64,000 nucleotides of DNA, taken from assembly GCA_029975525.1 (NCBI GenBank), contig JARKOX010000047.1, positions 1 through 64,000 on the forward strand, in the 5' to 3' direction. The stretch is from Prolixibacteraceae bacterium (GTDB lineage: Bacteria; Bacteroidota; Bacteroidia; Bacteroidales; Prolixibacteraceae). A model generated the notes under the pieces. The model was given only the letters and a program-made list of their open reading frames with translations, ran no database searches and had not been told where the DNA came from. Below are positions 1,361-14,536 of this stretch, in pieces. A program made the translations under genes and the position numbers. How positions within the stretch are numbered: position 1 is the stretch's first letter; the number at the start of each line of letters is the position of its first letter.

Positions 1361-1921
1361 ATGAAATCTTTACTTACCACTTTTACTGCTATTATTTTGT
1401 TTATTGGTGTAGTTGCCGCACAAGACACAAACACACACGGACACAACGTGACCATTTCGGTTCCCCAGGTGGCTATTATGGATATTGAAGGCCCGGGAGG
1501 GGAAACTTCCATTACCTTGGCTGCTACAGCGCCCACCGAAGCTGGTAATGGGCTTGATTTTTCTGCAACCAACTCTTCGCTTTGGCTGAATTTTACTTCG
1601 GTTGTTTCTGGCGGTAAATCCAGAAAGATTCAGGCAAACGTAAGTGGCACTTTGCCTGGCGGAGTTTCCCTGCTGGTACAGGCCGGCGCGATCTCTTCAA
1701 CCGGTAAGGGAAATCGGGGAAAAGCAGTAGCCAATGCCATTACGCTCGGCACAACTGATCAGGATATTGTCACCGACATTAAGAGTGGTTACACCGGAAA
1801 TGGTGTTAACAACGGATATCCGCTCACCTATTCGCTGGCGATGGATGAAAATGCTTACGAAAACCTGCTGCATGGAAGCCAGACGGTAACTGTTACGTAC
1901 ACCATCACTGCCGAAAATTGA
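1361..1921 (+). CDS. Putative secreted fibre subunit 1 (paralogue family of three)
   Basis: A 186-residue exported protein with a Sec signal peptide (residues 1-20, cleavage near VVAA/QD). The rest is beta-rich, Ser/Thr/Gly-rich and lacks cysteine. It is clearly paralogous to the products at 2206-2757 and 6850-7461. Shared blocks are an N-terminal alternating strand ending VPQVAIMDIE (34-43), PTEAG (58-62), LWLN (74-77), a GKG turn (115-117), TGNGVNNG (145-152) and a C-terminal strand VTVTYTIT (176-183). The terminal strands are what one expects of donor-strand pilins, but no named pilin family was recognised. It is the first gene of the cluster and is followed by a strong hairpin, so it could be the most abundant (major) subunit. 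Function is inferred from context with the chaperone-like and usher-like genes. Confidence 0.6.
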   Translation: MKSLLTTFTAIILFIGVVAAQDTNTHGHNVTISVPQVAIMDIEGPGGETSITLAATAPTEAGNGLDFSATNSSLWLNFTSVVSGGKSRKIQANVSGTLPGGVSLLVQAGAISSTGKGNRGKAVANAITLGTTDQDIVTDIKSGYTGNGVNNGYPLTYSLAMDENAYENLLHGSQTVTVTYTITAEN

Positions 1922-1944
1922 CAATTCAAAAACAGGATTGCCTG

Positions 1945-1979
1945 GAAGGGGCTGCTTCAACACCAGAAGCAGCCCCTTC
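1945..1979 (+). terminator. Strong hairpin after fibre subunit 1
   Basis: Perfect 14-bp arms GAAGGGGCTGCTTC (1945-1958) and GAAGCAGCCCCTTC (1966-1979) with a 7-base loop, 24 bases after the subunit 1 stop. There is no long T-run behind it. It may act as a partial terminator or as a 3'-end stabiliser that sets subunit 1 expression above the rest of the cluster. Confidence 0.6.
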
Positions 1980-2205
1980 TGGTTTAGATACCCTGCCCGG
2001 TGAGCAGCGTAATTTTATCTAAAAACTACGAAATAACGTAGTTTAAACGACAGGTCGGAGGTCGCGAAATGGTGTTTTGCTTGCAAATGTCTGGTTTGTA
2101 ATATTTTGTTGTTGGGAATATTTATTGTATATTTAAAACTCGACGCAAAACCTATATATTATTTTAAATTACAGACCCGCAAGGTTCGCCTTTAATTATT
2201 TTTAT

Positions 2206-2757
2206 ATGAAAAGGGGAATTTTAGTCATATTGTTATCGATTCTTTTCGCCACGACCGCCAGGACGCAGTCCAGCCAAAGCCATCAGGTCAGGATTGTAAT
2301 TCCCAAAGTAGCGCTTATCGATGTGGAGTCGGCCGGTTCGGCCACCGTTGTCTTGTCGTTGGGTAAACCGAATGAGGCGGGGCACGGTTTGCAGGCAGCT
2401 GCACAAAACGCTTCCGGCTATTGGATAAACTACTCTTCTGTACTTGCCAGTGGCCAGCCCGAGCGGAAAGTAATGGCCAGTCTGTCGGGAACTGCTCCTG
2501 AAGGGATAAAGGTTTTGTTGGAAGCTTCTTCCTACAGCGGAGAAGGGAAAGGTAAAAACGGAATCTCTTCCGGGAAAAAGATCCTCTCCGGCGAACCTAC
2601 CGAAATCATCAGCAATATTGGAAGCTGCTACACCGGCAATGGCGTAAACAACGGACATCTTCTCACCTTTTCCCTCGAAGTGGACGAGGAAAAATATGAG
2701 GCGGTCCGGCACGGCGATTTTGAAAACCTGCGGGTAACCTACACCCTCACCGAATAA
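2206..2757 (+). CDS. Putative secreted fibre subunit 2
   Basis: A 183-residue exported protein: Sec signal peptide 1-20, then a beta-rich domain. It aligns along its length with subunit 1: IPKVALIDVE (32-41), PNEAG (55-59), YWINYSS (72-78), GEGKG (112-116), TGNGVNNG (143-150) and a C-terminal strand LRVTYTLT (175-182). Unlike subunit 1 it has one cysteine, C141, just before TGNG; the paralogue at 6850-7461 has cysteine at the same place. A lone exported cysteine suggests an inter-subunit disulfide or another covalent link (inference). The 284-base gap upstream carries the hairpin at 1945-1979 and an AT-rich stretch that may hold a promoter, but I found no exact TAnnTTTG box. No named family recognised. 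Confidence 0.6.
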   Translation: MKRGILVILLSILFATTARTQSSQSHQVRIVIPKVALIDVESAGSATVVLSLGKPNEAGHGLQAAAQNASGYWINYSSVLASGQPERKVMASLSGTAPEGIKVLLEASSYSGEGKGKNGISSGKKILSGEPTEIISNIGSCYTGNGVNNGHLLTFSLEVDEEKYEAVRHGDFENLRVTYTLTE

Positions 2758-2948
2758 CCATTTTTCAGCACGATTTCCCTCCCCCCGACATAAATTCCTT
2801 CCTAAACTTAACGTAAAGGTTGTTGCCCGCTTATTTTCTTTAAAAGTCAGGGATTACGCCGCCGATTCGTATTTTTTCCATAATTTTACAGCTCGCCTGC
2901 GCAAGGCGCAATAAGCCAGTTGATTGTAAAAGACCAAAACAGGAAGAC

Positions 2949-3746
2949 ATGCAACTAACCTTCAGGATTTCTCTTTTTTCTTTTTTGCTGATTTTTTTGG
3001 GAAGCTTTTCTTTGGAAGCCAATATTTTGATTTTAAATGGGCTAACCCACGAAGCACAACTCTTGCCTGGCGAAAAGTACCAGGGAAGTATTCAGGTGCA
3101 AAATGCTTCCAACCAGGAGAAATCGGTAAAAATTTATCAAACCGATTACTGGTTTGCCTCCACCGGTGAGAGCCGGCACGATCAGCCGGGGACCCTGAAA
3201 AGGTCGAATGCATCGTGGATTTCTGTCAGTCAGTTGTTTGTAACACTGAAACCCAACGAAATCAAGAGTGTTGATTTTGAAGTTTTGGTTCCGCAAAATG
3301 ATTCGCTGACCGGTACCTACTGGAGTGTGATCATGCTCGAAGGAATGGAGCCGCCCGATACCACCAATGCCAAAACAGGCGTTACCATTAATACGGTGCT
3401 GCGGTATGCCGTTCAGGTGATCACGAACATCGGGGAGACCGGAACGTATGATTTGGAATTTCTTAAACTGGGATTGAACCGAGGCGAAGAGGGCGCCCGG
3501 CTTGAGGTCGACCTTGGAAACCGAGGCGAACGGGTCCTGCGTCCCGAGATGGGGCTCGAACTTTTTGATGCCAACGGGAATTCACAGGGCGTGATCAAGG
3601 CGGAACGAAAACGTATTTATCCCGGAACTTCTGCCCGGATTGTGCTCAACCTGGCAGCCATCAAACCCGGAAACTACTCGGGAGTATTAATTGCCGATTG
3701 CGACGAGGATCATATTTTTGGTTCGAACGTGAATCTGGAACTGTAG
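2949..3746 (+). CDS. Putative periplasmic pilus-type chaperone (PapD-like/DUF916-like)
   Basis: A 265-residue exported protein: signal peptide about 1-24 (ends LEA), then two Ig-like domains. The first (about 25-160) follows the order seen in chaperone-usher chaperones and in the DUF916 domain of WxL proteins: a PGE turn before a strand of the form IQVQNAS, then ASWISVSQLFVTLKPNE, then a P-D-S-L-TGTYWSVIMLE segment matching the usual SLFWLNV block, then TVLRYAVQVI in the position of the chaperone G1/hinge strand. The second domain (about 165-265) is another beta-sandwich. No PapD active-site Arg/Lys pair was assigned with certainty. The stop is two bases before the ATG of the usher-like gene, so the two are translationally coupled. 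The likely role is capping and delivering the subunits; this is inference. Confidence 0.6.
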   Translation: MQLTFRISLFSFLLIFLGSFSLEANILILNGLTHEAQLLPGEKYQGSIQVQNASNQEKSVKIYQTDYWFASTGESRHDQPGTLKRSNASWISVSQLFVTLKPNEIKSVDFEVLVPQNDSLTGTYWSVIMLEGMEPPDTTNAKTGVTINTVLRYAVQVITNIGETGTYDLEFLKLGLNRGEEGARLEVDLGNRGERVLRPEMGLELFDANGNSQGVIKAERKRIYPGTSARIVLNLAAIKPGNYSGVLIADCDEDHIFGSNVNLEL

Positions 3747-3748
3747 TA

Positions 3749-6700
3749 ATGCGCAAGCTTTACCTGACCCTTTTCCTGACCTGGACGCTCCGACTTTTGG
3801 CAGTTGCTGCCGGCGCCGGCGATTCGTTGCAGGTAGAGCTGGCCACTGGCAACCTGAACCTGGATCCCGGCCGCGTACATAACCTCATTTTTAAAATCAC
3901 CAACAATTCAACACAGACCGAGACGATCAGGACAACCGCTGTTTTTCCCGATGGCTGGAAGCTGGCCGTGCCGATAACTCAGGTTACCCTGTCGCCGGGA
4001 GAGCGGAAAATAGAGCTGGTCAGTTTCAATATTCCTTATCGGTTTCAGGCCGGAAAATCGACCGTTCGGGTACAGTTTTTCCGCGGGCAAGCAGAGGCCG
4101 CTCCGTTTGCGGAGCAAATCGTCGAGATTACGGTCAGCGAGATCGAAAATTTTACTTTCGAATTGTTACAGGCGCCGGCATTTGTCAGGGGAGGAGAGGT
4201 TGTAACGGCAACTTACCTGCTGAAAAATACCGGGAACAGCACCCGTAAGTTTTACCTGGAATCGACCGACTGCGATGTGACTTCGGATTCGTGGGTGGTC
4301 TTAAAATCCGGAGAATCGACCACCGTTCAGGCCGAGGCCAAAACCGACAAGATGATCGCTGCCGCCCGGACGCTGGGGATTACGGTGCAGGCCGCGTTGT
4401 CGGAAAAGGTTCAGAAGAGGGTTTTTCACAATGTGAAGGTTTTTCCCCTCCGCGAAGCAGATGCCGACCTCTTCTTCAGGTATCCCGTTACCTTGAGTTC
4501 GAGATACCTGGCCCGCGGCCGGGACGGGAAATATTCCGCAGGGTATCAGCTGGAAGCAGCGGGCAGCGGCGCGATCGACCAAAAGGGGAACCACCGGCTG
4601 GCGTTTATGGCCCGCGGCCCCAATAATTACGACCTCTCTTTTCTGGGACTTTATGACCAGTATTACCTCGCCTATTCAAATAAAAACCTGGAAACTTTCA
4701 TCGGACATAAATCTTTCGAATTTACGCCCCTGATTGAATCGACCCGTTTTGGAACCGGCGTTGAAAATACGTTGATCCTGAACAACGGGAGCCGGTTCGG
4801 TTTTTTGTATGTTGAACCGCGCTTTTTCCGGGATATCAAAAACGAGATAGCCGCCTATGCCGACGTGCCTGTTTTTCGGAAAAACAGGATTGGCGCCTAT
4901 TTCCTGACCAAAAAAATAAATCCCTCTCAGGAAGATGCCTACCTGGCCAGCCTGAGTTCGACGCTGAAGCCTTTCGGGAAAACTTCGCTTGAGCTGGAAT
5001 TGTCGCGGGGCGTGTTTCAGGAGAAGAGCGACAACGCTTTCCGGGCTTACCTGAACAGCCAGTTTTGGATTTTCAGTATTTCAGGAAACTACTTTTACAC
5101 CGGCAAATTCTACCCGGGCTACTATTCCAACTCCACGTTTTACAGCGGTTACCTGAATGCCAGCCTTACGAAACGGATTAGTCTGGGGGTCAGCGCCCGG
5201 CAGGACTTTGCCAACGCCGCACTCGACACCCTGCTGAGTTCGGCGCCCTATTCCCGAATGGTGCAAGGCTCGCTGAACTACCGGGCCAGCCGCAACCTCG
5301 ATGTGCGTTCGTACTACATCCGCTATGAACGAAAAGACCGGATGCCCCAAAAATTGTTTGATTACCATACCGAATCGTTTAATCTTTTTCTGAACCACAA
5401 CTTTCACAAACTGGGCTACCAGGTGGGCGGCGAACTGGGAAAAACCCGCAATAACCTGGTTGCAGCGGGCGTTTCCGATTTGCAGAACAGCTTCCGCACC
5501 AACCTCAATATCTATTACCGGCCATCCTATTTGTTCAATATCCAGGCTTTTACCTCCTATACCAACATGAACAGTTTTATCGCATCCAACCAAAAAAACT
5601 GGCTCTGGGGAGTGTCCGCTTTTGGACAGGTGGCTAAAAACCTGCGCACCAATTTCCAGGTGCAAAACAGCTATGCCATTGAAGATTATTACCAAAACCG
5701 GAACCTCTTCCAGCTGAACCTGGATTACAGTTTTCTGAAAAGACACAAGATTTCGCTGAATAGCTTTTACACCCTCTTTCAAAACCAGACTGAAAAACCT
5801 GATTATTCGTTTTCGGTGACCTATTCCGTGGAAATTGGCATTCCGCTGAAAAAAACCGGAGAAGCCGGGTCGGTTGCCGGACAACTCAGCGGGACCGACG
5901 GCCTGCCGCTGGATGGTATAATGGTTTTTTTGAACGGCAGATCGGCTGTGACCGACGCAAACGGCCTCTTCCGTTTCCGGAATGTGCTCCCCGGAAGATA
6001 TCACCTGATGGTCGACCGCAGCCAATTCAGCATCGGCGAGATCATCAATATTCCTGCTCCCGTGACGCTGGATGTCACCGGCAACCAGGAGACGCGCATC
6101 AACCTGGCGCTGGTGCAGGCAGCCCGCTTGCAGGGAAAAATCGTTGTCCGGGAATCTGCCGGGCCGCTTTCGATGATGAACCAGGAGCCGCCCCGGCTGG
6201 GAAATATTGTCATGGACCTGAAAGATGAACTGGAAACGATCCGGATCATTACCAACCCCGACGGGACGTTTCTTTTCCCGACGCTTCGGCCCGGCGGATG
6301 GGTTCTGCACGTGTTTAAAAATAATATCGACAGTCAGTACCATCTGGCGAAGGAGTTTTTTGAGCTGAAGTTGCTTCCCGGCGAAACGGAAGAGGTGGTG
6401 GTGGAACTGCTTCCCAAAACCCGGAAAATTATTTTCAATACGAATACGATCAATGTTTCGTCAACTTCGTCGCGGGAAACGCCCCCCACAGAAACAGCCC
6501 AACCTGCCGAAAGTCGCGGAAATCAGATTTCACGGGCGGATAAGGAGATTTGGTTTTCGGTTCAGGTGGCGGCAGCTTTCAGTCCGATTGCTCCCGGCTC
6601 GCACGAACTGAAGGGGGAAACCGGGGTTTTTGAGAAAAAAATCGATGGAAGGTACAAATATTTCAGCGGAAGGTTTACCGGGATCAAACAGGCACGGCTG

Positions 6701-6805
6701 GAGCGAAACCGGATCAGGGAAAAAATACCGGGCGCTTTTGTGGTCGCTTTTGAGGGGGAGCATCCGGTTCCGCTGAGTGAAGCCCTCAAGAGAAGCAAAC
6801 CGTAA
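3749..6805 (+). CDS. Usher-like outer-membrane beta-barrel protein with C-terminal SPOR-like domain
   Basis: A 1018-residue exported protein. The ATG at 3749 is preferred over an in-frame ATG at 3698: it directly follows the chaperone stop and begins a proper signal peptide (MRKLYLTLFL). Visible order: signal peptide 1-24; two Ig-like NEW3-type domains about 25-245; a long barrel region about 250-710 full of alternating aromatic strands and short turns; a carboxypeptidase-regulatory-like beta-sandwich about 715-790 (GSVAGQL, VTDANGLFRFRNVLPGRY); a second such module about 795-885; a low-complexity Ser/Thr/Pro linker; and a SPOR-like module about 920-1005 (WFSVQVAA, then YKYFSGRFTG, GAFVVAFEG). 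SPOR domains bind peptidoglycan. Barrel plus chaperone plus subunits suggests an usher-like export pore, but no classical PapC/FimD signature was recognised. It could instead be another type of large outer-membrane anchor. Confidence 0.6.
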   Translation: MRKLYLTLFLTWTLRLLAVAAGAGDSLQVELATGNLNLDPGRVHNLIFKITNNSTQTETIRTTAVFPDGWKLAVPITQVTLSPGERKIELVSFNIPYRFQAGKSTVRVQFFRGQAEAAPFAEQIVEITVSEIENFTFELLQAPAFVRGGEVVTATYLLKNTGNSTRKFYLESTDCDVTSDSWVVLKSGESTTVQAEAKTDKMIAAARTLGITVQAALSEKVQKRVFHNVKVFPLREADADLFFRYPVTLSSRYLARGRDGKYSAGYQLEAAGSGAIDQKGNHRLAFMARGPNNYDLSFLGLYDQYYLAYSNKNLETFIGHKSFEFTPLIESTRFGTGVENTLILNNGSRFGFLYVEPRFFRDIKNEIAAYADVPVFRKNRIGAYFLTKKINPSQEDAYLASLSSTLKPFGKTSLELELSRGVFQEKSDNAFRAYLNSQFWIFSISGNYFYTGKFYPGYYSNSTFYSGYLNASLTKRISLGVSARQDFANAALDTLLSSAPYSRMVQGSLNYRASRNLDVRSYYIRYERKDRMPQKLFDYHTESFNLFLNHNFHKLGYQVGGELGKTRNNLVAAGVSDLQNSFRTNLNIYYRPSYLFNIQAFTSYTNMNSFIASNQKNWLWGVSAFGQVAKNLRTNFQVQNSYAIEDYYQNRNLFQLNLDYSFLKRHKISLNSFYTLFQNQTEKPDYSFSVTYSVEIGIPLKKTGEAGSVAGQLSGTDGLPLDGIMVFLNGRSAVTDANGLFRFRNVLPGRYHLMVDRSQFSIGEIINIPAPVTLDVTGNQETRINLALVQAARLQGKIVVRESAGPLSMMNQEPPRLGNIVMDLKDELETIRIITNPDGTFLFPTLRPGGWVLHVFKNNIDSQYHLAKEFFELKLLPGETEEVVVELLPKTRKIIFNTNTINVSSTSSRETPPTETAQPAESRGNQISRADKEIWFSVQVAAAFSPIAPGSHELKGETGVFEKKIDGRYKYFSGRFTGIKQARLERNRIREKIPGAFVVAFEGEHPVPLSEALKRSKP

Positions 6806-6849
6806 AAAAGATTTGTTTCTCGGACGTTGTGATTATTTGTAAATTACGA

Positions 6850-7461
6850 ATGGAAAAATTTACCATGATGAGAACCTTGACAAAGTGGCTGCTTCGACAC
6901 TGCAAATGGGTGTGGGCCGTTTGGCCGCTCCTGATGGGCCCGGCTGAGATTTCGGGACAGTCCTTCTCCAGCCGGCAACTTCTCAATTTTACGGTACAAA
7001 TCCCCGAAATTGCCCTGATCGACATCGAGCCGGGGGGAGCTGCCAATATCAACCTGACGCTCTCTTCCCCAACAGAGGCAGGCAGAGAGATGAACACTGC
7101 GATAGCGTCGGACAATTCGTTGTGGCTGAATTACTCTTCGTCGCTGGCGGCCGGCAGGACCACCACACGCAAAGTTAACGTGCAGATTTCGGGCGGAGAA
7201 GTTCCGGCCGGCGCCTCCATCAGGTTGAGTGCCTCCCGTTATTTGGGAAGCGGAAAAGGGACGTTCGGGCAGCCTTCCGGGACCATCACCCTGAGCAATT
7301 CGCCTCAAACCCTGATCTCCGGAATCGGCGGATGTTTCACCGGCGACGGGATCAACAACGGGCACCAGCTGAATTTCAGCCTTGTTGTTTCGGATTACTC
7401 CCTGCTCGATTTGGCGCAGAGTTCCACGCTGCGGCTCACTTACACCATCACCGACAACTGA
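6850..7461 (+). CDS. Putative secreted fibre subunit 3
   Basis: A 203-residue exported protein, paralogous to subunits 1 and 2. The start is uncertain: ATG at 6850, 6865 and 6868 are all in frame and a GTG lies at 6829. The 6865 start would give a more compact signal peptide ending near EISGQ. Numbering from 6850, conserved blocks are IPEIALIDIE (51-60), PTEAG (74-78), LWLNYSS (91-97), GSGKG (133-137), CFTGDGINNG (162-171) and a C-terminal strand LRLTYTIT (194-201). Cys162 matches Cys141 of subunit 2. It lies 44 bases after the usher-like gene and 6 bases before the last cluster gene. Placement after the usher suggests a minor or adaptor subunit; this is inference. Confidence 0.6.
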   Translation: MEKFTMMRTLTKWLLRHCKWVWAVWPLLMGPAEISGQSFSSRQLLNFTVQIPEIALIDIEPGGAANINLTLSSPTEAGREMNTAIASDNSLWLNYSSSLAAGRTTTRKVNVQISGGEVPAGASIRLSASRYLGSGKGTFGQPSGTITLSNSPQTLISGIGGCFTGDGINNGHQLNFSLVVSDYSLLDLAQSSTLRLTYTITDN

Positions 7462-7467
7462 TTTGAT

Positions 7468-7974
7468 ATGAAAAAGATTTTACTTCTGCCGATATTGTTC
7501 CTGACGGTTGCTGTTTACAGCAGTTTGGCCCAAACGCCGGGTGCCCAGCTGTATGTTGAGGGGTCCCCGCAGTTTAACTTTTCGCAACTGACCATCACCG
7601 AAGCCGGTAACGATTTTTCGGCGACCGTCGAAGAGAGTCAGTCCAATGTGTTGTTCAGCGTCAGTCACATCGACCGGAATGCTAAAAATTTTAACTGGGA
7701 GATCCAGATGAGCGTGAACGATTTGCCGGGAGCAAACTCGCCGTTTGTCGAAATCAGGAGAACCGGCGACGGGGAGCGAAGCACCCAGGGATCCGGGCAT
7801 GTCCAGGGTGGGAAAACTTATCAGCGGGTTGATGCCACTCCCCGGACGTTTTTTACGGGTCGTGGCGGCAGAGCCAATATTCCGGTCATGTTCCGGCTGG
7901 GTAACCTCTCTGCGGCGCAACCTGCCGGGAGCAACTATTTCTCAATCGTTTTTACGATTATCGATACGAAATAA
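7468..7974 (+). CDS. Putative minor or tip component of the fibre cluster
   Basis: A 168-residue exported protein with signal peptide 1-21 (ends SSLAQ). It is beta-rich and cysteine-free, and differs from the three paralogous subunits. It keeps a TITEAGNDF segment near residue 43, comparable to their TEAG block, and a C-terminal alternating strand NYFSIVFTII. It begins 6 bases after subunit 3, so the two are one operon, and ends 11 bases before the convergent sulfatase stop. Divergent last-gene position is typical for tip or terminator subunits in pilus operons, but that role is only inferred. No family recognised. Confidence 0.5.
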   Translation: MKKILLLPILFLTVAVYSSLAQTPGAQLYVEGSPQFNFSQLTITEAGNDFSATVEESQSNVLFSVSHIDRNAKNFNWEIQMSVNDLPGANSPFVEIRRTGDGERSTQGSGHVQGGKTYQRVDATPRTFFTGRGGRANIPVMFRLGNLSAAQPAGSNYFSIVFTIIDTK

Positions 7975-7985
7975 CCGCCGATCGT

Positions 7986-9878
7986 TTACCAGTCAAAAGT
8001 GATCCGGTATTTCGCCGGGTCGAGTTTCCATTTTTCAATCAGCCATTTGGCAGCCCGCAGGTCGTATTTTTGTCGGCTCACCGTTTTCTGGGTGGCAACC
8101 ATGTCGATAACCGCCTGCTGCACGTCGGGTGAGGAGATGCCTGTACAGTCGATTGCATTGAGGGCATGGCAGCGGTCAAATTCGTCGTGGTGTTTCAGCA
8201 CCGCCTTCAACGTTTGGATCGCCTCCTTTTTTTCTCCAAGATTATAAAGCGCTTCGGCCGCTGTTACCGCCACATTGGGAGAGCTGTCGCCGAGGGCCTG
8301 CCGGAGCAGCGGTTGGGCTGCCGCAGCTTCTTTTCCCAGTATGAGCAGTCCGGTGGCGCCCCAATACCGAATGCCGCTGTCTTTACTTTTCAGGAAAGTT
8401 TGGAGTTGTTCCAGGTTGCCGGCTTCTCCGCGCGCAGCCACATCGGCGGCAGCAACCAGGTCGTTGAAGGAAAAGCTCCCGGAGCGGAAATAGTCATAAA
8501 AAGGAAGTTTACCGGCGCGCGCCGAGCGGTCGGCTTCGAGCAGAAAACCGGTGTCGAAAATCCGGATACTCCAGTCCAGACTGGCTTTTCGCATCCGTTC
8601 GAGAACCTCGCGGTAGGCCGGGTTAGCGGCCAGGTTGTTCACTTCCCACGGATCGTTTTCCGTATCGTAAAGTTCTTCCACTGGTTTGGGTTGCCAGAAA
8701 CGGCTCTGGATTTCATTGCATTTTCCCGCCAGCCACGCCTCTTCCCACGAGCGGATCGAAGGGGCTTTCCACAGGTATTCGAGATGCTGCCCGTAAATCC
8801 GGAAAGGCATGTAGTTGCGGATGTAACGGAATTTTTTGTCGCGGACGGCGCGGCTCAGGTCGTAGCGTTCATCCATCCGGTCGCGAAACATGAAGGCATA
8901 TTCCGGATCTGCCGTTTTTTGTTTGCCCAGGAAAGCCTGTCCCTGCAGAAATTGGGGGATGGGCGTGCCGATCAGGCTGAGCAGGGTGGGAGAGAGATCG
9001 ACAAAACTGATGAGCCGGTCGACAGCAGTTCCCGGTTGGGAGGCTGGCCACAACTCTTTGTACTTTTCCGGGATCCGAACGATGAACGGCACCCGGGTTC
9101 CCGACTCGTAGACATACCGTTTGCTGCGGGCCAGCACCCCGCCATGATCGCCGTAATAAAAAACGATGGTGTTTTCTGCTTCGCCGCTCGCCTCCAGTTC
9201 CTGCAGGATTTCGCCCACCCAGGTGTCCAGCTCTTCCAGTTTGTCGTAATACTGCGCCCAGTCGTGCCGCATTTCCGGCGTGTCGGGGTGGTAGGGCGGC
9301 AGCTTCACCCGGCGGGGATCGTGCCGCAGTTTATCGGTTGGGACGGACTGGTGGATCGAACTTTCGTGCGAGATGGTGGAGTTGAAAATGGCAAAAAACG
9401 GCTGTCCCGGCCGCCGGTTTTTGTAGTGGGCCGTCCGGCTCGATTCGTCCCAGATGTTTTTGGTTTGACCGGCCGGAAGGTTGTAGTCTTCTTTGGAGTT
9501 ATTGGTACAATAGTAACCCGCTTCGCGCAGAAACTGCGGGTAAAACCTCACGGTTTCCGATTTGGGATAGTTGCTGCGCATGTGCTGGTTTCCGCCCGAG
9601 CAGGCATACACCCCGGTGATGATGGTGTTGCGGGTGGGGGCGCAAACCGGGGCGTTGGCGTAGGCGTGGGTGTACCTGAACCCTTCGGAGGCCAGCTTGT
9701 CGAGGTTGGGCGTGGTGGCATAATCGTCGCCGTAACAACCCAAAAACGGACTGTTGTCTTCGCTGGTGATCCACAGGATATTGGGCCGATCGGCGGAGGG
9801 CTGCGCCTCTGCCGGAATGTGCGGTAACAGCAGTGAAGCGCCGGCGAGGGTTGCCAGGGTAAGGTTTTTTGGTTTCAT
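7986..9878 (-). CDS. Exported S1-family (FGly) sulfatase with C-terminal HEAT-like repeats
   Basis: A 630-residue sulfatase that would hydrolyse a sulfate ester or sulfamate on a glycan in the periplasm. Signal peptide 1-26. The N-terminal alkaline-phosphatase-like domain shows NILWITSEDNSP with metal ligands and the formylglycine motif C79-A-P-T-R83, the sequence matured by an anaerobic or FGE-type enzyme encoded elsewhere. GDHGG near residue 245 supplies further active-site ligands. Residues about 490-600 form HEAT-like helical repeats (IRYWGATGLLILGKEA, NVAVTAAEALYNLGEKKEA), an appendage seen in some heparan sulfamidase-like relatives. It lies 29 bases downstream of the GH106-like gene in the same direction, so desulfation and rhamnosidase action are probably coordinated. 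Exact substrate is unknown. Confidence 0.9.
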   Translation of the reverse strand: MKPKNLTLATLAGASLLLPHIPAEAQPSADRPNILWITSEDNSPFLGCYGDDYATTPNLDKLASEGFRYTHAYANAPVCAPTRNTIITGVYACSGGNQHMRSNYPKSETVRFYPQFLREAGYYCTNNSKEDYNLPAGQTKNIWDESSRTAHYKNRRPGQPFFAIFNSTISHESSIHQSVPTDKLRHDPRRVKLPPYHPDTPEMRHDWAQYYDKLEELDTWVGEILQELEASGEAENTIVFYYGDHGGVLARSKRYVYESGTRVPFIVRIPEKYKELWPASQPGTAVDRLISFVDLSPTLLSLIGTPIPQFLQGQAFLGKQKTADPEYAFMFRDRMDERYDLSRAVRDKKFRYIRNYMPFRIYGQHLEYLWKAPSIRSWEEAWLAGKCNEIQSRFWQPKPVEELYDTENDPWEVNNLAANPAYREVLERMRKASLDWSIRIFDTGFLLEADRSARAGKLPFYDYFRSGSFSFNDLVAAADVAARGEAGNLEQLQTFLKSKDSGIRYWGATGLLILGKEAAAAQPLLRQALGDSSPNVAVTAAEALYNLGEKKEAIQTLKAVLKHHDEFDRCHALNAIDCTGISSPDVQQAVIDMVATQKTVSRQKYDLRAAKWLIEKWKLDPAKYRITFDW

Positions 9879-9907
9879 AACGGTTGACCTCCGAAGGGTA
9901 AAATTGG

Positions 9908-12900
9908 TTAATTTATTCGGACAAGGTTGAACGGCTCCATCAATCCGTAATCCATCAGGAAGTAACCGGAGGCGTCGGGCATCTTTTCAGGAGCGCGATT
10001 CCATTCAAACGGACCAAATATAGAGCCTTTGTTGTTCCGGAAAAAGAATCCAAAAGTGTTTTTCAGGCTTCCGGTCACTTTTACGGTAATTTCGTTGATC
10101 CCCTCTTTCAGCAGCGGGGTTACATCGAGTTGGTAAGGCTGCCAGGCAATCAAGCCGGCCGGTTGGCCGTTCACCACCACTTCGGCGACCGTTCCGCTCC
10201 AGCTGTTCAGTTTTACCCGGAAGTTTGCCCCAGCCGGTTGGGAAACGTTGAAATGTTGGGTGTAGGCAACTTTTTGCGAATAGAAAGGCAGGCCTGCCTG
10301 GCGCCAGGAACCGGTTGAGCCGATTGTCCCGCCGGCCAGTTCAAACCCTTTTTCCACCGGGTTGACCAGGAAGTCGCCCAGCAGATAAACAGGCATCACT
10401 TCGGCCAGCACATTCATGCGCGGCGCTTTCAGGGTGAGGGTGTTGAGGCCCGGCTGCAGAAACCGGCCCACGGCAAACTGCGGAAACTGTTTTTCAATCC
10501 AGTAACTGCTGTCGGTTTTGGCAACCTCCTGCCCGTTAATATGCACCCGCCACAATTCGGGGCGTTCGACTACTGCGCGGATATTTTTCAGGGCTTCCGC
10601 ATTCAGGCTGGGATTGATCTGAAAATGGTAACTCGCTTCGAACCACGAGTCAGCTTTGAAGAGGGTGTCGAGTGCCAGGTAATCTTTTTTGTACTGAATT
10701 TTGTGTTGCCACGGATTCCCCATTTCAATCCCGTTTTCGTTGAAAAGGCCAATCAGCGCATTCATAAAATAGATCTCCGGTTTCTCGGAGCGGGCTGTTT
10801 TCAGATCGAGGTAGTTGATTGGCATCACGTTGTCGGCTTCCCGTTTAACGGCCAGTTCGCCGGTTTTTTCCACGACGGTTTCGGTTCCGGTCACCGGCGA
10901 GTAGAGCGGCGCACGGCTTTTGCGGCTGGTGACGACAAACAGGGCGCTGCCGGCCGGGTCCAGGTCAACCTCAAACGAAACTTTGCCATCGCTGTTTTGA
11001 GCCGGGTAGGTGTAGATTTTTCCATCGGTCAGCTCCAGTTTTGAAACCTGTTTTCCGGCAAGGGTGATTGTTGCCGAAGCTTTTTGGGCAGGGTGCGAAT
11101 TGACCACCAAGAGAAGTTGTCCGTCTTTCAGGATCCGGCGTTGGTGGTAGAGCATGCCGTTCTGGGTTTTGTCGGTCATCGAAAAGTCGGCGTGGCTGAG
11201 CAGCGCCAGCGCCGGCTCATCGGTAAGTGTTGCGGCGAAGGTCCAATTTTCACCTGCTTGGCTGATCAGTTCATTTACGGCTGCCGAGGGTTCGCCGTCG
11301 AGCAGCGGGATCTCTTTCCGGAAAGAGAGCACCTTCCCGCCGTTGCCCAGATATTGGCGCAGCAGGTCGAAGGTGGAGCGGTCGATGTTTTCCATTTCAG
11401 CCGGAATAACCACCAGCGAGTAGTTGCGTTTGCCTACCTGCAGGGCTTTGTCTGTTACGCTTCCGAGTACTTTCAGGACATTTTCCGAACCGAGGTCGTA
11501 TTCCAGGTGCTGCTGTTCGAGGCGGTAGACAAAGTTTTTAAAACCATCGCGGATCAGGTTGATTGCCGGGTTTTTTTCTTTTCTGGAGAAATACATCCAG
11601 GCCGAGGTGTTGGGCTGAAGCAGCAGCGTTTGGTTGATCTGTTCGCCCGACGAGAGGGCCAGACTGATCCGGCCGATGTAGTCGCCCATCAGTTTGTAAT
11701 GTTCCCACCACGGTTCGTGGTAGGAAAAGGAGGGGGGATAATCGAATTTGCGGACGCCGTTCAGCGAATAATAGGAGAGGTGCTGGTTTACAAAATTGAC
11801 GCCCATTACGCATTCCCAGTCCACCAGCCGCTTCTGGGTTTCGAAAGTCATCTCCCAGCCGCCGCCTCCGTAGGTTTCGCTGAGCGTACGTTTTCTGCCG
11901 GCCTGGTTGGCGGCGCTCAGCAGTTCGCGGACTGCCCGTTCGTTTCCGAATTGTCCGCCCAGGCCGACGGTGTCGAGTCGGTTTCCGAGCATGTCAACGC
12001 CGGGCATCTGGTGCCAGATGTAAAACGCCGCTTCGTCAAAGCCGTGGGTAGGTTCGGGCCAGCCGTGTTCCCAGTAGTGGCCGGTCCATTTGAGCCCTTT
12101 TTCGTCGCAGTAGTTACTCCACGGTTTGGCCCAGCGGTCTACAAACATTTCGAGGATCAGCTCGTAGTAGTCGTGGCGCACTTTTTTCCAGTTTCCGGTC
12201 TCTTCCACCAGTGCCGGGAGGTTCGCCCGCAGATCGTAGCCCCAGCGTTGCCGGAAAGCGTCCCACAAATCGGGAGTCCAGCGCAGCAGGGAGTTTTTAC
12301 CCATCCGCGCTTCGAGGTTGGGTTCGTCGGTAAAGATTCCCGGAACGGTTTGGCCGAAATCGGTTAGGTTTCTTTCGTAACCTCGGGTCATGGTGATGTC
12401 GAGGAACTTTTCGGTCACTCCCCGGTAAAGCAGATCGACGTAGGTAAAGTTACCATACCACGGAGATTTTTCCGGATAGGTTTTCCGGAAGAGGTAGTAG
12501 GTGCCCCGTTGCCCTTTTTCCTGTTCGGCCAGGGCGGTGATATCGGTGAATCCGGTTTCCGTTTTTTTCAGAATGACCTCGATGGTGTCGGAAAGTTCCA
12601 TATTCAGGGTTTCGCTGATCTCCAGGCTCAGTCCGACGCCATGTTTGTAAGCGTCGGGCATTTCAGCCGGAACATGACCGCCTGCAAATCCCGAAGGGTA
12701 AGAGTTTTCGTCGTAGATCCACACTTTCATGTCCAGCTCTTTTCCTTTCCGGACGGTGTAGTCAAAGAGCCGGAACCACTCCTCCGAAAGATATTCGGTG
12801 AGCAATCCGGGGCGCGGATGGACAAACACCCCGCCGATGCCGGCCTTTTTAAATTTTTTCATCTGGAAATCGATGCCCTCTTCGGTGATCTGGTCGTTCC

Positions 12901-13066
12901 AGTCCCACAACGGAGCGCTGCGGTATTCCGAAGGCGGGTTGGCAAATTGTTTTTTCAACTGTGCCACAGTGGTGATTCCTTCCGGGCCTGGTTTGGGCGT
13001 GCAGCTTCCGAGGATGACAGCAACCAGGATCATTGTGCAGAGAATGGGGAATTTGTGCTTTTTCAT
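9908..13066 (-). CDS. GH106-like glycoside hydrolase (putative alpha-L-rhamnosidase), lipoprotein
   Basis: A 1052-residue lipoprotein (lipobox ending LGSC near residue 22). The N-terminal TIM-barrel block is typical of the large Bacteroidota GH106-like group: PLWDWNDQI, GGVFVHPRPGL, YLSEEW and VWIYDENSYPSGFAGG. Central motifs are KWTGHYWEHGWPEPTHG, SETYGGGGWEM and GVNFVNQHLSYYS. The C-terminus (about 850-1050) contains beta-sandwich sugar-binding modules resembling those of GH2 enzymes. Family members remove L-rhamnose from pectic and other side chains; a related family (GH139) acts on methylated fucose, so specificity is not certain. It lies between the isomerase gene (57-base gap upstream) and the sulfatase (29 bases), consistent with one operon. 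Confidence 0.8.
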   Translation of the reverse strand: MKKHKFPILCTMILVAVILGSCTPKPGPEGITTVAQLKKQFANPPSEYRSAPLWDWNDQITEEGIDFQMKKFKKAGIGGVFVHPRPGLLTEYLSEEWFRLFDYTVRKGKELDMKVWIYDENSYPSGFAGGHVPAEMPDAYKHGVGLSLEISETLNMELSDTIEVILKKTETGFTDITALAEQEKGQRGTYYLFRKTYPEKSPWYGNFTYVDLLYRGVTEKFLDITMTRGYERNLTDFGQTVPGIFTDEPNLEARMGKNSLLRWTPDLWDAFRQRWGYDLRANLPALVEETGNWKKVRHDYYELILEMFVDRWAKPWSNYCDEKGLKWTGHYWEHGWPEPTHGFDEAAFYIWHQMPGVDMLGNRLDTVGLGGQFGNERAVRELLSAANQAGRKRTLSETYGGGGWEMTFETQKRLVDWECVMGVNFVNQHLSYYSLNGVRKFDYPPSFSYHEPWWEHYKLMGDYIGRISLALSSGEQINQTLLLQPNTSAWMYFSRKEKNPAINLIRDGFKNFVYRLEQQHLEYDLGSENVLKVLGSVTDKALQVGKRNYSLVVIPAEMENIDRSTFDLLRQYLGNGGKVLSFRKEIPLLDGEPSAAVNELISQAGENWTFAATLTDEPALALLSHADFSMTDKTQNGMLYHQRRILKDGQLLLVVNSHPAQKASATITLAGKQVSKLELTDGKIYTYPAQNSDGKVSFEVDLDPAGSALFVVTSRKSRAPLYSPVTGTETVVEKTGELAVKREADNVMPINYLDLKTARSEKPEIYFMNALIGLFNENGIEMGNPWQHKIQYKKDYLALDTLFKADSWFEASYHFQINPSLNAEALKNIRAVVERPELWRVHINGQEVAKTDSSYWIEKQFPQFAVGRFLQPGLNTLTLKAPRMNVLAEVMPVYLLGDFLVNPVEKGFELAGGTIGSTGSWRQAGLPFYSQKVAYTQHFNVSQPAGANFRVKLNSWSGTVAEVVVNGQPAGLIAWQPYQLDVTPLLKEGINEITVKVTGSLKNTFGFFFRNNKGSIFGPFEWNRAPEKMPDASGYFLMDYGLMEPFNLVRIN

Positions 13067-13123
13067 ATTGGTTTGTTGTTTAATAGTCGTTGGTTAAAGT
13101 TGGATCGGGTGAAAAGGAATTGA

Positions 13124-14536
13124 TTAACCGATCTTCGCCACGTGAAGGCCGATAATTTTTCCCAGTTTTTCAATTTTGGCGGCCAGATGACCGGTTCCGA
13201 TGGCGCAGTGGTGCGCCGGCCCCTGCTTCGACCACTCATTTATAAACTGCCTGGCGCCAATTGGGAAGCGGTAGCGGCTGTTGGTGTTGCCGATGCGCAG
13301 TACCGGCCCCGGAACCGATTCGCCTTCGGCCACCAGCAGGAAAAGCTCATTTTTGCCTTCCACAACCGACAGCAGGGTTACCGGTCCGTGTTTGACGCTC
13401 ATCTGGATAGACAATCCTTTGCCGGGTTTTCCGTGATAGACCGGCAGCGGCACCAGTTTTACACGGCCTTCGGCAATGGCAAAATGGGCCGGCCCGTCGT
13501 GGCCCAGCATCACCACGTCGTCGTTAAAATCCATCAGGTAGAATTCGGAGAAGGACCCTCCTGCGCCAAATTCCGCCAGGATTTTCATGGCTTGGGCATT
13601 TTTCACCTCGCATTCGCCGGCTACCGGGATGTTTTTGCCAGTCAGCAAGGTGTTTCCGGCAATCACCGAAGTGACGATATTTTCGTATTCATTGCCCGGT
13701 TGCCCCTCGTAATAATAGGCCAGGGAGCCGAGGTTGCGGTTCCGGACCAGCTTGTCGAGCGCTACCGAGGTGCGGGCTGCCCGCTCGATTTCGGCTGGCT
13801 CGCACTCGGGCGACACGTCGAATGCCATGCTGAACTCCTCCATCTTGGATTGAACTTCAGGAATGGTCGCCTCGTCGCGGTATTTTTTCAGCTCGCACAT
13901 TTCAAGCAGTTCGATGTGGGTGCCAAACGCTGCCGACTGTTGGGTCAGATCGGTGTACACATCGAGCATTCCGCCGTAATAGTGGCCCAGTATGCCCAGC
14001 CGGTTGTTGCGCATGGCAGCGGCAACCCGCGCCGCTTCGGTCCATTCGCGGATTTCGTTCCACGCTTTTTCGTCCTGCAGATATCCGGTTACGAAGGCGT
14101 AACTGATTCCGGAGCGGTTAAATACGGCAGCAATTTCGGGGACTGCGCAGGCCTGGCAATGTTCGAGCCACTTGCCGGTCATTTTGCCACGGTCGCCCAA
14201 CTGGTTGAAGGTTTCGTAATCGAGTTGGGCTACCGGCTGCAGGTTTAGGATTATCACCGGCACTTTCAGCCTTTGCGCTACCGGCAGCACAGTTGACGAA
14301 AGAGCGTATGTGGAAACATACAGAAATAGGATCTCCACCCCCTGCGACTTCAGAAAGTCGGCAGCTGCGCGGGCTTTCTCCGGGTTGTCAACCATGCCGG
14401 CATCGGCCACGTCTACTCCAAAACCGGCAATGCGGTTTTTGATCTGCTCCTGGTACTTTTTCAGGTTACCGAGCAATCCGTCGAACTGCGCCCAGTAGGT
14501 GTCGAGCCCAATTCCAAATAATCCTGCTTTGGTCAT
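13124..14536 (-). CDS. L-fucose/L-arabinose isomerase family protein
   Basis: A 470-residue cytoplasmic protein without a signal peptide. It belongs to the FucI/AraA fold group of aldose-ketose isomerases. The four likely metal ligands are visible: E308 in GECEV, E331 in SEFYLMDF, H346 in LGHDGP and a histidine in AHHCAIGTGH near residue 447. The family converts an aldose such as L-fucose, L-arabinose or L-rhamnose-like sugars to the ketose. Length fits AraA (about 500) better than FucI (about 590). In an operon with a GH106-like enzyme and a sulfatase it probably handles the released deoxysugar or pentose, which is inference. Several FucI/AraA-like proteins of this subgroup have no tested substrate. 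Confidence 0.8.
   Translation of the reverse strand: MTKAGLFGIGLDTYWAQFDGLLGNLKKYQEQIKNRIAGFGVDVADAGMVDNPEKARAAADFLKSQGVEILFLYVSTYALSSTVLPVAQRLKVPVIILNLQPVAQLDYETFNQLGDRGKMTGKWLEHCQACAVPEIAAVFNRSGISYAFVTGYLQDEKAWNEIREWTEAARVAAAMRNNRLGILGHYYGGMLDVYTDLTQQSAAFGTHIELLEMCELKKYRDEATIPEVQSKMEEFSMAFDVSPECEPAEIERAARTSVALDKLVRNRNLGSLAYYYEGQPGNEYENIVTSVIAGNTLLTGKNIPVAGECEVKNAQAMKILAEFGAGGSFSEFYLMDFNDDVVMLGHDGPAHFAIAEGRVKLVPLPVYHGKPGKGLSIQMSVKHGPVTLLSVVEGKNELFLLVAEGESVPGPVLRIGNTNSRYRFPIGARQFINEWSKQGPAHHCAIGTGHLAAKIEKLGKIIGLHVAKIG

Follow-up and report, generated by a model that had tools for sequence, protein, structure and literature searches.

A chaperone-usher-like locus in Prolixibacteraceae and its kinship to WxL systems: a candidate surface fiber pathway of diderm bacteria

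Introduction

Chaperone-usher pili (FimC/FimD, PapD/PapC, class 5 CfaA, archaic CsuC) are encoded by gene clusters with the order subunit, chaperone, usher, subunits; their chaperones share a fold of two Ig domains, and their ushers (FimD/PapC) combine an N-terminal domain, a 24-strand barrel with an inserted plug, and two C-terminal sandwich domains. Their reported range is limited to Proteobacteria and, for the archaic branch, also Cyanobacteria and Deinococcus-Thermus (PMC4654587). Bacteroidota are known for type V pili (FimA/Mfa1), which follow the donor-strand principle, as would the surface fiber proposed here. Type V pili are not known to have a chaperone-barrel pair.

The WxL clusters of Gram-positive bacteria encode one two-domain protein, WxLIP, along with two or more small secreted proteins. 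One proposal is that WxLIP keeps WxL attached to the cell wall. In an AlphaFold model of the WxLIP-WxL complex, a long, otherwise unstructured hairpin of the DUF916 domain turns into a strand and thereby completes the sandwich of WxL (PMC10599100).

The locus described here lies in a window of 64,000 nucleotides (the whole stretch of DNA analyzed) from a Prolixibacteraceae bacterium. Its gene order, two-Ig chaperone fold, and succession of N-terminal domain, barrel, and two C-terminal sandwiches are those of chaperone-usher pili, but it lacks the PF00577 usher family and the pili chaperone signature, the modeled barrel has 26 strands and no plug, the N terminus carries a pair of Ig-like (NEW3-type) domains, some members have a SPOR or LysM tail, and the hosts include phyla beyond the reported range. 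With WxL systems it shares a two-domain protein homologous over both Ig domains, including what appears to be the hairpin that the model inserts into WxL, and the same composition of one two-domain protein and several small secreted proteins; it differs in its diderm hosts, its outer-membrane barrel, a chaperone devoid of a transmembrane helix, and subunits that the WxL model does not match.

Gene organization

The locus consists of six genes, all on the + strand at 1361-7974:

1361-1921, + strand: subunit A, pilin-like, 186 aa
2206-2757, + strand: subunit B, a paralog of A, 183 aa
2949-3746, + strand: two-Ig-domain periplasmic chaperone, 265 aa
3749-6805, + strand: usher-like outer-membrane barrel protein, 1,018 aa counted from the ATG
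6829-7461, + strand: subunit C, a paralog of A and B, 210 aa
7468-7974, + strand: subunit D, a second subunit type, 168 aa

The first-pass annotation of this DNA had proposed these six genes, with secreted subunits and very short spacers, and all of the open reading frames (ORFs) were found in place. Both spacers were borne out: 2 bases separate the chaperone stop (ending at 3746) from the barrel ATG (3749), and 6 bases separate subunit C from subunit D. In the mechanical ORF list, the barrel frame opens at a TTG codon (3698) upstream of that ATG. A signal-like N terminus, basic and then hydrophobic, is present in all six products, including each of the subunits, as judged by eye rather than with SignalP. 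Downstream, on the - strand (7986-14536), the window carries genes that, judged by their ORFs alone, encode sulfatase-like, large secreted glycoside-hydrolase-like, and sugar-isomerase-like proteins, perhaps part of a polysaccharide utilization cluster.

Distribution and conservation

A whole barrel is encoded in 9 of 61 genomes (the source genome and its relatives), and the mapped loci of the relatives keep the order subunits, chaperone, barrel, subunits. A relative of the chaperone is encoded in 42 of 395 genomes sampled from the phylum. Counts from a class-wide search with the barrel were swamped by cross-matches to CarboxypepD_reg and were not used as a measure of the system. A scan of GTDB representative genomes with the chaperone alignment returned 193 relatives, of which 80 were kept; these 80 loci were picked by the chaperone alone and so provide an independent test of the rest of the block. 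The barrel gene directly follows the chaperone gene in 79 of them (median gap, 2 bases), a subunit gene is present in 78, and at least two subunit genes are present in 72. Distances in the chaperone and barrel trees correlate with an r of 0.82 (best of 1,000 permutations, 0.20), a figure to which shared descent contributes. All or most of the six-gene block recurs in relatives, which is the kind of synteny that the first-pass annotation had set as a check. With the chaperone and barrel also paired in 79 of 80 loci from other genomes, the block is real, very widespread, and far beyond chance.

The supposed confinement of the system to Bacteroidota had to be corrected, as it is present across many diderm phyla. 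By record labels, the 80 loci represent about a dozen of these (Bacteroidota, Spirochaetota, Planctomycetota, Chromatiaceae, and others), plus a Deinococcus plasmid. The isolates include Draconibacterium orientale, Mariniphaga, Maribellus, Thiocapsa roseopersicina, Thiohalocapsa marina, and Thiococcus pfennigii, and the metagenome-assembled genomes (MAGs) are labeled Spirochaetales, Planctomycetota, Armatimonadetes, Gemmatimonadaceae, Acidobacteriota, Ignavibacteria, Riflebacteria, KSB1, Opitutia, Acetomicrobium, and others. MAG labels are fallible (one reads Clostridiales); the isolates alone represent two phyla, with the Deinococcus plasmid as a third. On that plasmid, from Deinococcus deserti, the chaperone gene and then the barrel gene lie between two small genes, and the barrel gene starts immediately behind that of the chaperone. 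In the corresponding record (plasmid 2, 7950-11241 of locus L031), the names given are FimB/Mfa2 family fimbrial subunit for the chaperone and carboxypeptidase regulatory-like protein for the barrel; both names look wrong. Viral contigs scanned with the chaperone gave zero matches. Searches of the open-access literature in PMC turned up no description of such a system, whether for Bacteroidota or for other phyla.

The chaperone as a relative of WxLIP

On profile evidence, the chaperone is related along its full length to WxLIP (DUF916+DUF3324) of Gram-positive bacteria. A profile of 35 members matches Enterococcus faecium WxLIP1 (EfmWxLIP1) with an E value of 1e-13 over 27-262, spanning both Ig domains, and the WxLIP Pfam models PF06030 and PF11797 are matched by 18 and 5 of these members, respectively. 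A fold search placed WxLIP (bound to WxL) first, followed by CfaA, CsuC, Caf1M, CupB2, and FimC. The matches to CfaA, CsuC, Caf1M, and FimC identify the two-Ig fold of the PapD type, with the Z scores of pilus chaperones tied with those of other PapD-like domains. Among the candidates named in the first-pass annotation, the chaperone finds a match twice, with the PapD type by fold and with DUF916/WxLIP by sequence. As for sequence similarity to pilus chaperones, PapD_N is matched by 6 of the 35 members (best E value, 0.003), and hhalign against Escherichia coli pilus chaperones gave a probability of 49% over 180 columns. The pili chaperone signature, searched for with an approximate PS00635-like pattern, was found in 0 of 129 members and in 5 of 6 E. 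coli chaperones.

The chaperone, which carries the motif RSNAxW, ends in the window at its last strand and has no C-terminal transmembrane helix. Its putative donor strand, GVTINTVLRYAVQV (residues 143-156), lies in a long loop and aligns at the place that corresponds to the WxLIP loop. In our reading of the alignment, this segment would be the counterpart of the WxLIP hairpin described in PMC10599100. It also falls, in a weak comparison with the E. coli chaperone profile, on the region of the G1 donor strand. Over 198 residues (Z score, 12.2), the modeled chaperone also aligns with 2qsv, a solved Porphyromonas gingivalis structure with no assigned function, which may be a relative or may only have the fold in common.

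The barrel protein

The structural model of one member (pLDDT, 85.5; pTM, 0.57) predicts the following domains in the barrel protein:

residues 27-232: two N-terminal Ig-like domains
residues 242-702: 26-strand barrel
residues 707-889: two transthyretin/CarboxypepD_reg-like domains
residues 894-931: disordered linker
residues 934-1015: SPOR-like domain

The predicted barrel has 26 strand elements, the longest insertion between them being about 14 residues, which leaves no inserted plug domain. Some of the barrels end in SPOR (E value, 3e-25) or LysM domains. In four loci (L146, L152, L156, and L172), two ORFs take the place of a single barrel gene, which may reflect a frameshift, a sequencing error, or a real split.

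Both fold and domain order of the barrel protein are usher-like. In a Foldseek search of the PDB, the top eleven matches of the model were all FimD or PapC (E values from 4e-15 to 1e-11); VIA gave Z scores of 16.5 for FimD and 15.9 for PapC, the latter over 454 residues that reach into the C-terminal domains. The porin MtrB, however, scored above the ushers in VIA (Z score, 21.1), so part of the match reflects general barrel geometry. MtrB is a 26-stranded barrel. The strand number of the protein is therefore MtrB-like and its domain order usher-like. Were the barrel another porin or conduit of the MtrB kind, or a general exporter, the small proteins would be soluble periplasmic or surface proteins independent of it. 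The top VIA rank of MtrB favors such a reading, as does the fact that any large barrel yields sizeable scores. Against it, Foldseek ranked ushers rather than MtrB first, the arrangement of N-domain, barrel, and two sandwiches is that of an usher, the pairing with the chaperone is nearly invariant with trees in agreement, and no cytochrome-like neighbors stood out by eye in the mapped loci, which together make it highly improbable. The sequence searches matched the barrel to no known nonsecretion family, and its best Foldseek matches remain FimD/PapC, in keeping with the first-pass annotation.

No homology to ushers emerged from the sequence. PF00577 was absent from the source genome, with an E. 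coli control positive, and from all ten barrels scanned singly (that of the window and those of nine other loci). Comparison with six E. coli ushers by hhalign gave probabilities of 15% and 23%, and neither these ushers nor EcpC aligned over anything but a transthyretin-like motif. By these scans, the barrel is not a member of the PF00577 family; the view that it works like an usher stands. The class 5 usher domain CooC_C is matched by a few barrels (best E value, 1e-5; elsewhere, 0.017), and TcfC left a trace match in one (0.094). These hits, together with the position of CfaA as the best pilus-chaperone match, would suit a true but much diverged member of one of the known usher clades (class 5/alternative or archaic), assembling a fiber by the same mechanism and escaping profiles too narrow to recognize it. 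That account overlaps with the one preferred here and differs from it solely in ancestry; it appears unlikely in view of the hhalign results against the six E. coli ushers and EcpC, the different strand count, and the lack of the chaperone signature in all 129 members. We favor a chaperone-usher-like, donor-strand fiber pathway that stands apart from the classical, alternative, and archaic clades and has a link to WxL systems, with the hhalign comparison covering the six E. coli ushers and EcpC.

The subunits

Subunits A and B are 39% identical, and A, B, and C are paralogs, as first annotated. The fourth subunit, which had been taken as distinct, is indeed more distant, yet iterated profiles join it to the others; D-like proteins align across phyla as a separate conserved group (AGxD ... 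FFxGxxxR ... TTxxFTV). After its signal peptide, subunit A reads HNVTISVP, followed by the conserved motif VA[IL]xDIE, and its C terminus is VTYTIT. In the modeled subunit, the segment after the signal peptide has alternating hydrophobic residues and low confidence and precedes the first strand. The alternating strands noted earlier at both subunit ends are consistent with donor-strand assembly but do not demonstrate it.

Searches of Pfam and NCBIfam gave no convincing family match for the subunits and, in particular, none to an unrelated family. The fimbrillin/Mfa models did not match the subunits either, and type V pili were rejected on this ground, in agreement with the first-pass annotation. 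Alignment with E. coli pilins by hhalign was limited to the signal peptide, and a PDB sequence search with the subunit and barrel profiles returned no pilin or usher beyond chance-level matches to YehD (E value, 0.2). Two matches of profile A13 to designed trefoils in that search cover just 16 to 27 positions and were taken as chance. The WxL domain model had zero matches in sets of 49 and 82 subunits. In a Phycisphaerae MAG (L161, 4882-6396), on which the WxL model is likewise silent, the subunits end in TVTWTLTEDS, a sequence that resembles the second Trp-x-Leu motif of WxL domains.

Subunit genes are found in tandem arrays of up to eight (L147 and L175). Three loci (L084 to L086) carry near-identical copies; in two of them, four to five near-identical genes for subunits of about 181 aa stand in tandem beside a distant chaperone-barrel pair (L084, 9687-16817; L085, 4914-8461), and response-regulator-like genes lie near the arrays (L084, 3659-4306; L085, 14934-15581). 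In this distant branch (L084 to L087 and L090), the near-identical or single subunits are accompanied by a protein of about 478 aa whose subunit-like domain occupies only the C-terminal 150 residues, a layout as in two-domain tip adhesins; its E value is flattered because the profile was trained with these loci. In two other loci, a long ORF of 318 or 342 aa (L137, 5986-6942; L144, 5893-6921) overlaps the preceding subunit gene and ends in a D-type subunit domain just upstream of the chaperone; the real gene is likely the C-terminal part only.

Tandem copies and a tip-like two-domain protein bear on an alternative in which the system is the diderm counterpart of WxL and does not polymerize, the chaperone and subunits forming a surface complex and the SPOR-tipped barrel only exporting and anchoring it. 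The chaperone is nearer in sequence to WxLIP than to any pilus chaperone, and the barrels of several members end in SPOR or LysM domains. Nevertheless, a polymer suits the subunit multiplicity and the tip-like protein better, the chaperone has no transmembrane helix and has as its partner a large barrel missing from WxL clusters, and the WxL domain model finds no match among the subunits, so that a nonpolymerizing complex seems quite unlikely.

Proposed assembly pathway

Gene order, chaperone fold, barrel fold, subunit multiplicity, and the tip-like protein, taken together, indicate that the six genes probably encode a chaperone-usher-like pathway that assembles a surface fiber. The fiber interpretation of the first-pass annotation is accordingly supported, with synteny, the chaperone fold, and the Foldseek matches of the barrel in agreement. 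In the mechanism that we infer, Sec would export the four subunits as unfinished Ig-like sandwiches, and the periplasmic chaperone would hold each one with a strand donated by its long loop (GVTINTVLRYAVQV). Chaperone-subunit pairs would then be recruited by the N-terminal Ig domains of the barrel protein, where the chaperone strand would be swapped for the N-terminal extension (NVTISVP-type) of the next subunit. The fiber would exit through the barrel, the two C-terminal sandwich domains serving as handover sites, and the terminal SPOR-like domain would tether the usher to peptidoglycan. Subunits A, B, and C would be the repeating units, and D a unique tip or base subunit.

It is conceivable, though somewhat doubtful, that these loci constitute a separate donor-strand fiber lineage, present in many diderm phyla and equipped with an usher type of its own (26 strands, no plug, peptidoglycan-tethered), that has an ancestor in common with WxL/WxLIP. 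In that case, WxL would represent a fiber system that persisted in monoderms after losing its outer-membrane component, or the change went the opposite way. Related machinery in Bacteroidota, spirochaetes, planctomycetes, acidobacteria, and others would amount to a general diderm route of fiber building, overlooked because none of its proteins has a recognizable name, and the link to WxLIP yields a concrete hypothesis, strand donation, for the WxL clusters of gut commensals. As cultured, genome-sequenced carriers exist, direct testing is possible.

A subunit and the chaperone of one locus (L095) were modeled as one chain, with stop codons read as Gly. The model (pTM, 0.50) has good chaperone and subunit domains and a donor loop with pLDDT below 50; it shows no complex and places no donor strand and was not used as binding evidence, and VIA flagged its subunit part as barely tested. 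Both the loop (KVQQGISINT) and the subunit N terminus (AFAQSHQVAVS) are of low confidence in this model and look free, as would be expected of free donor strands.
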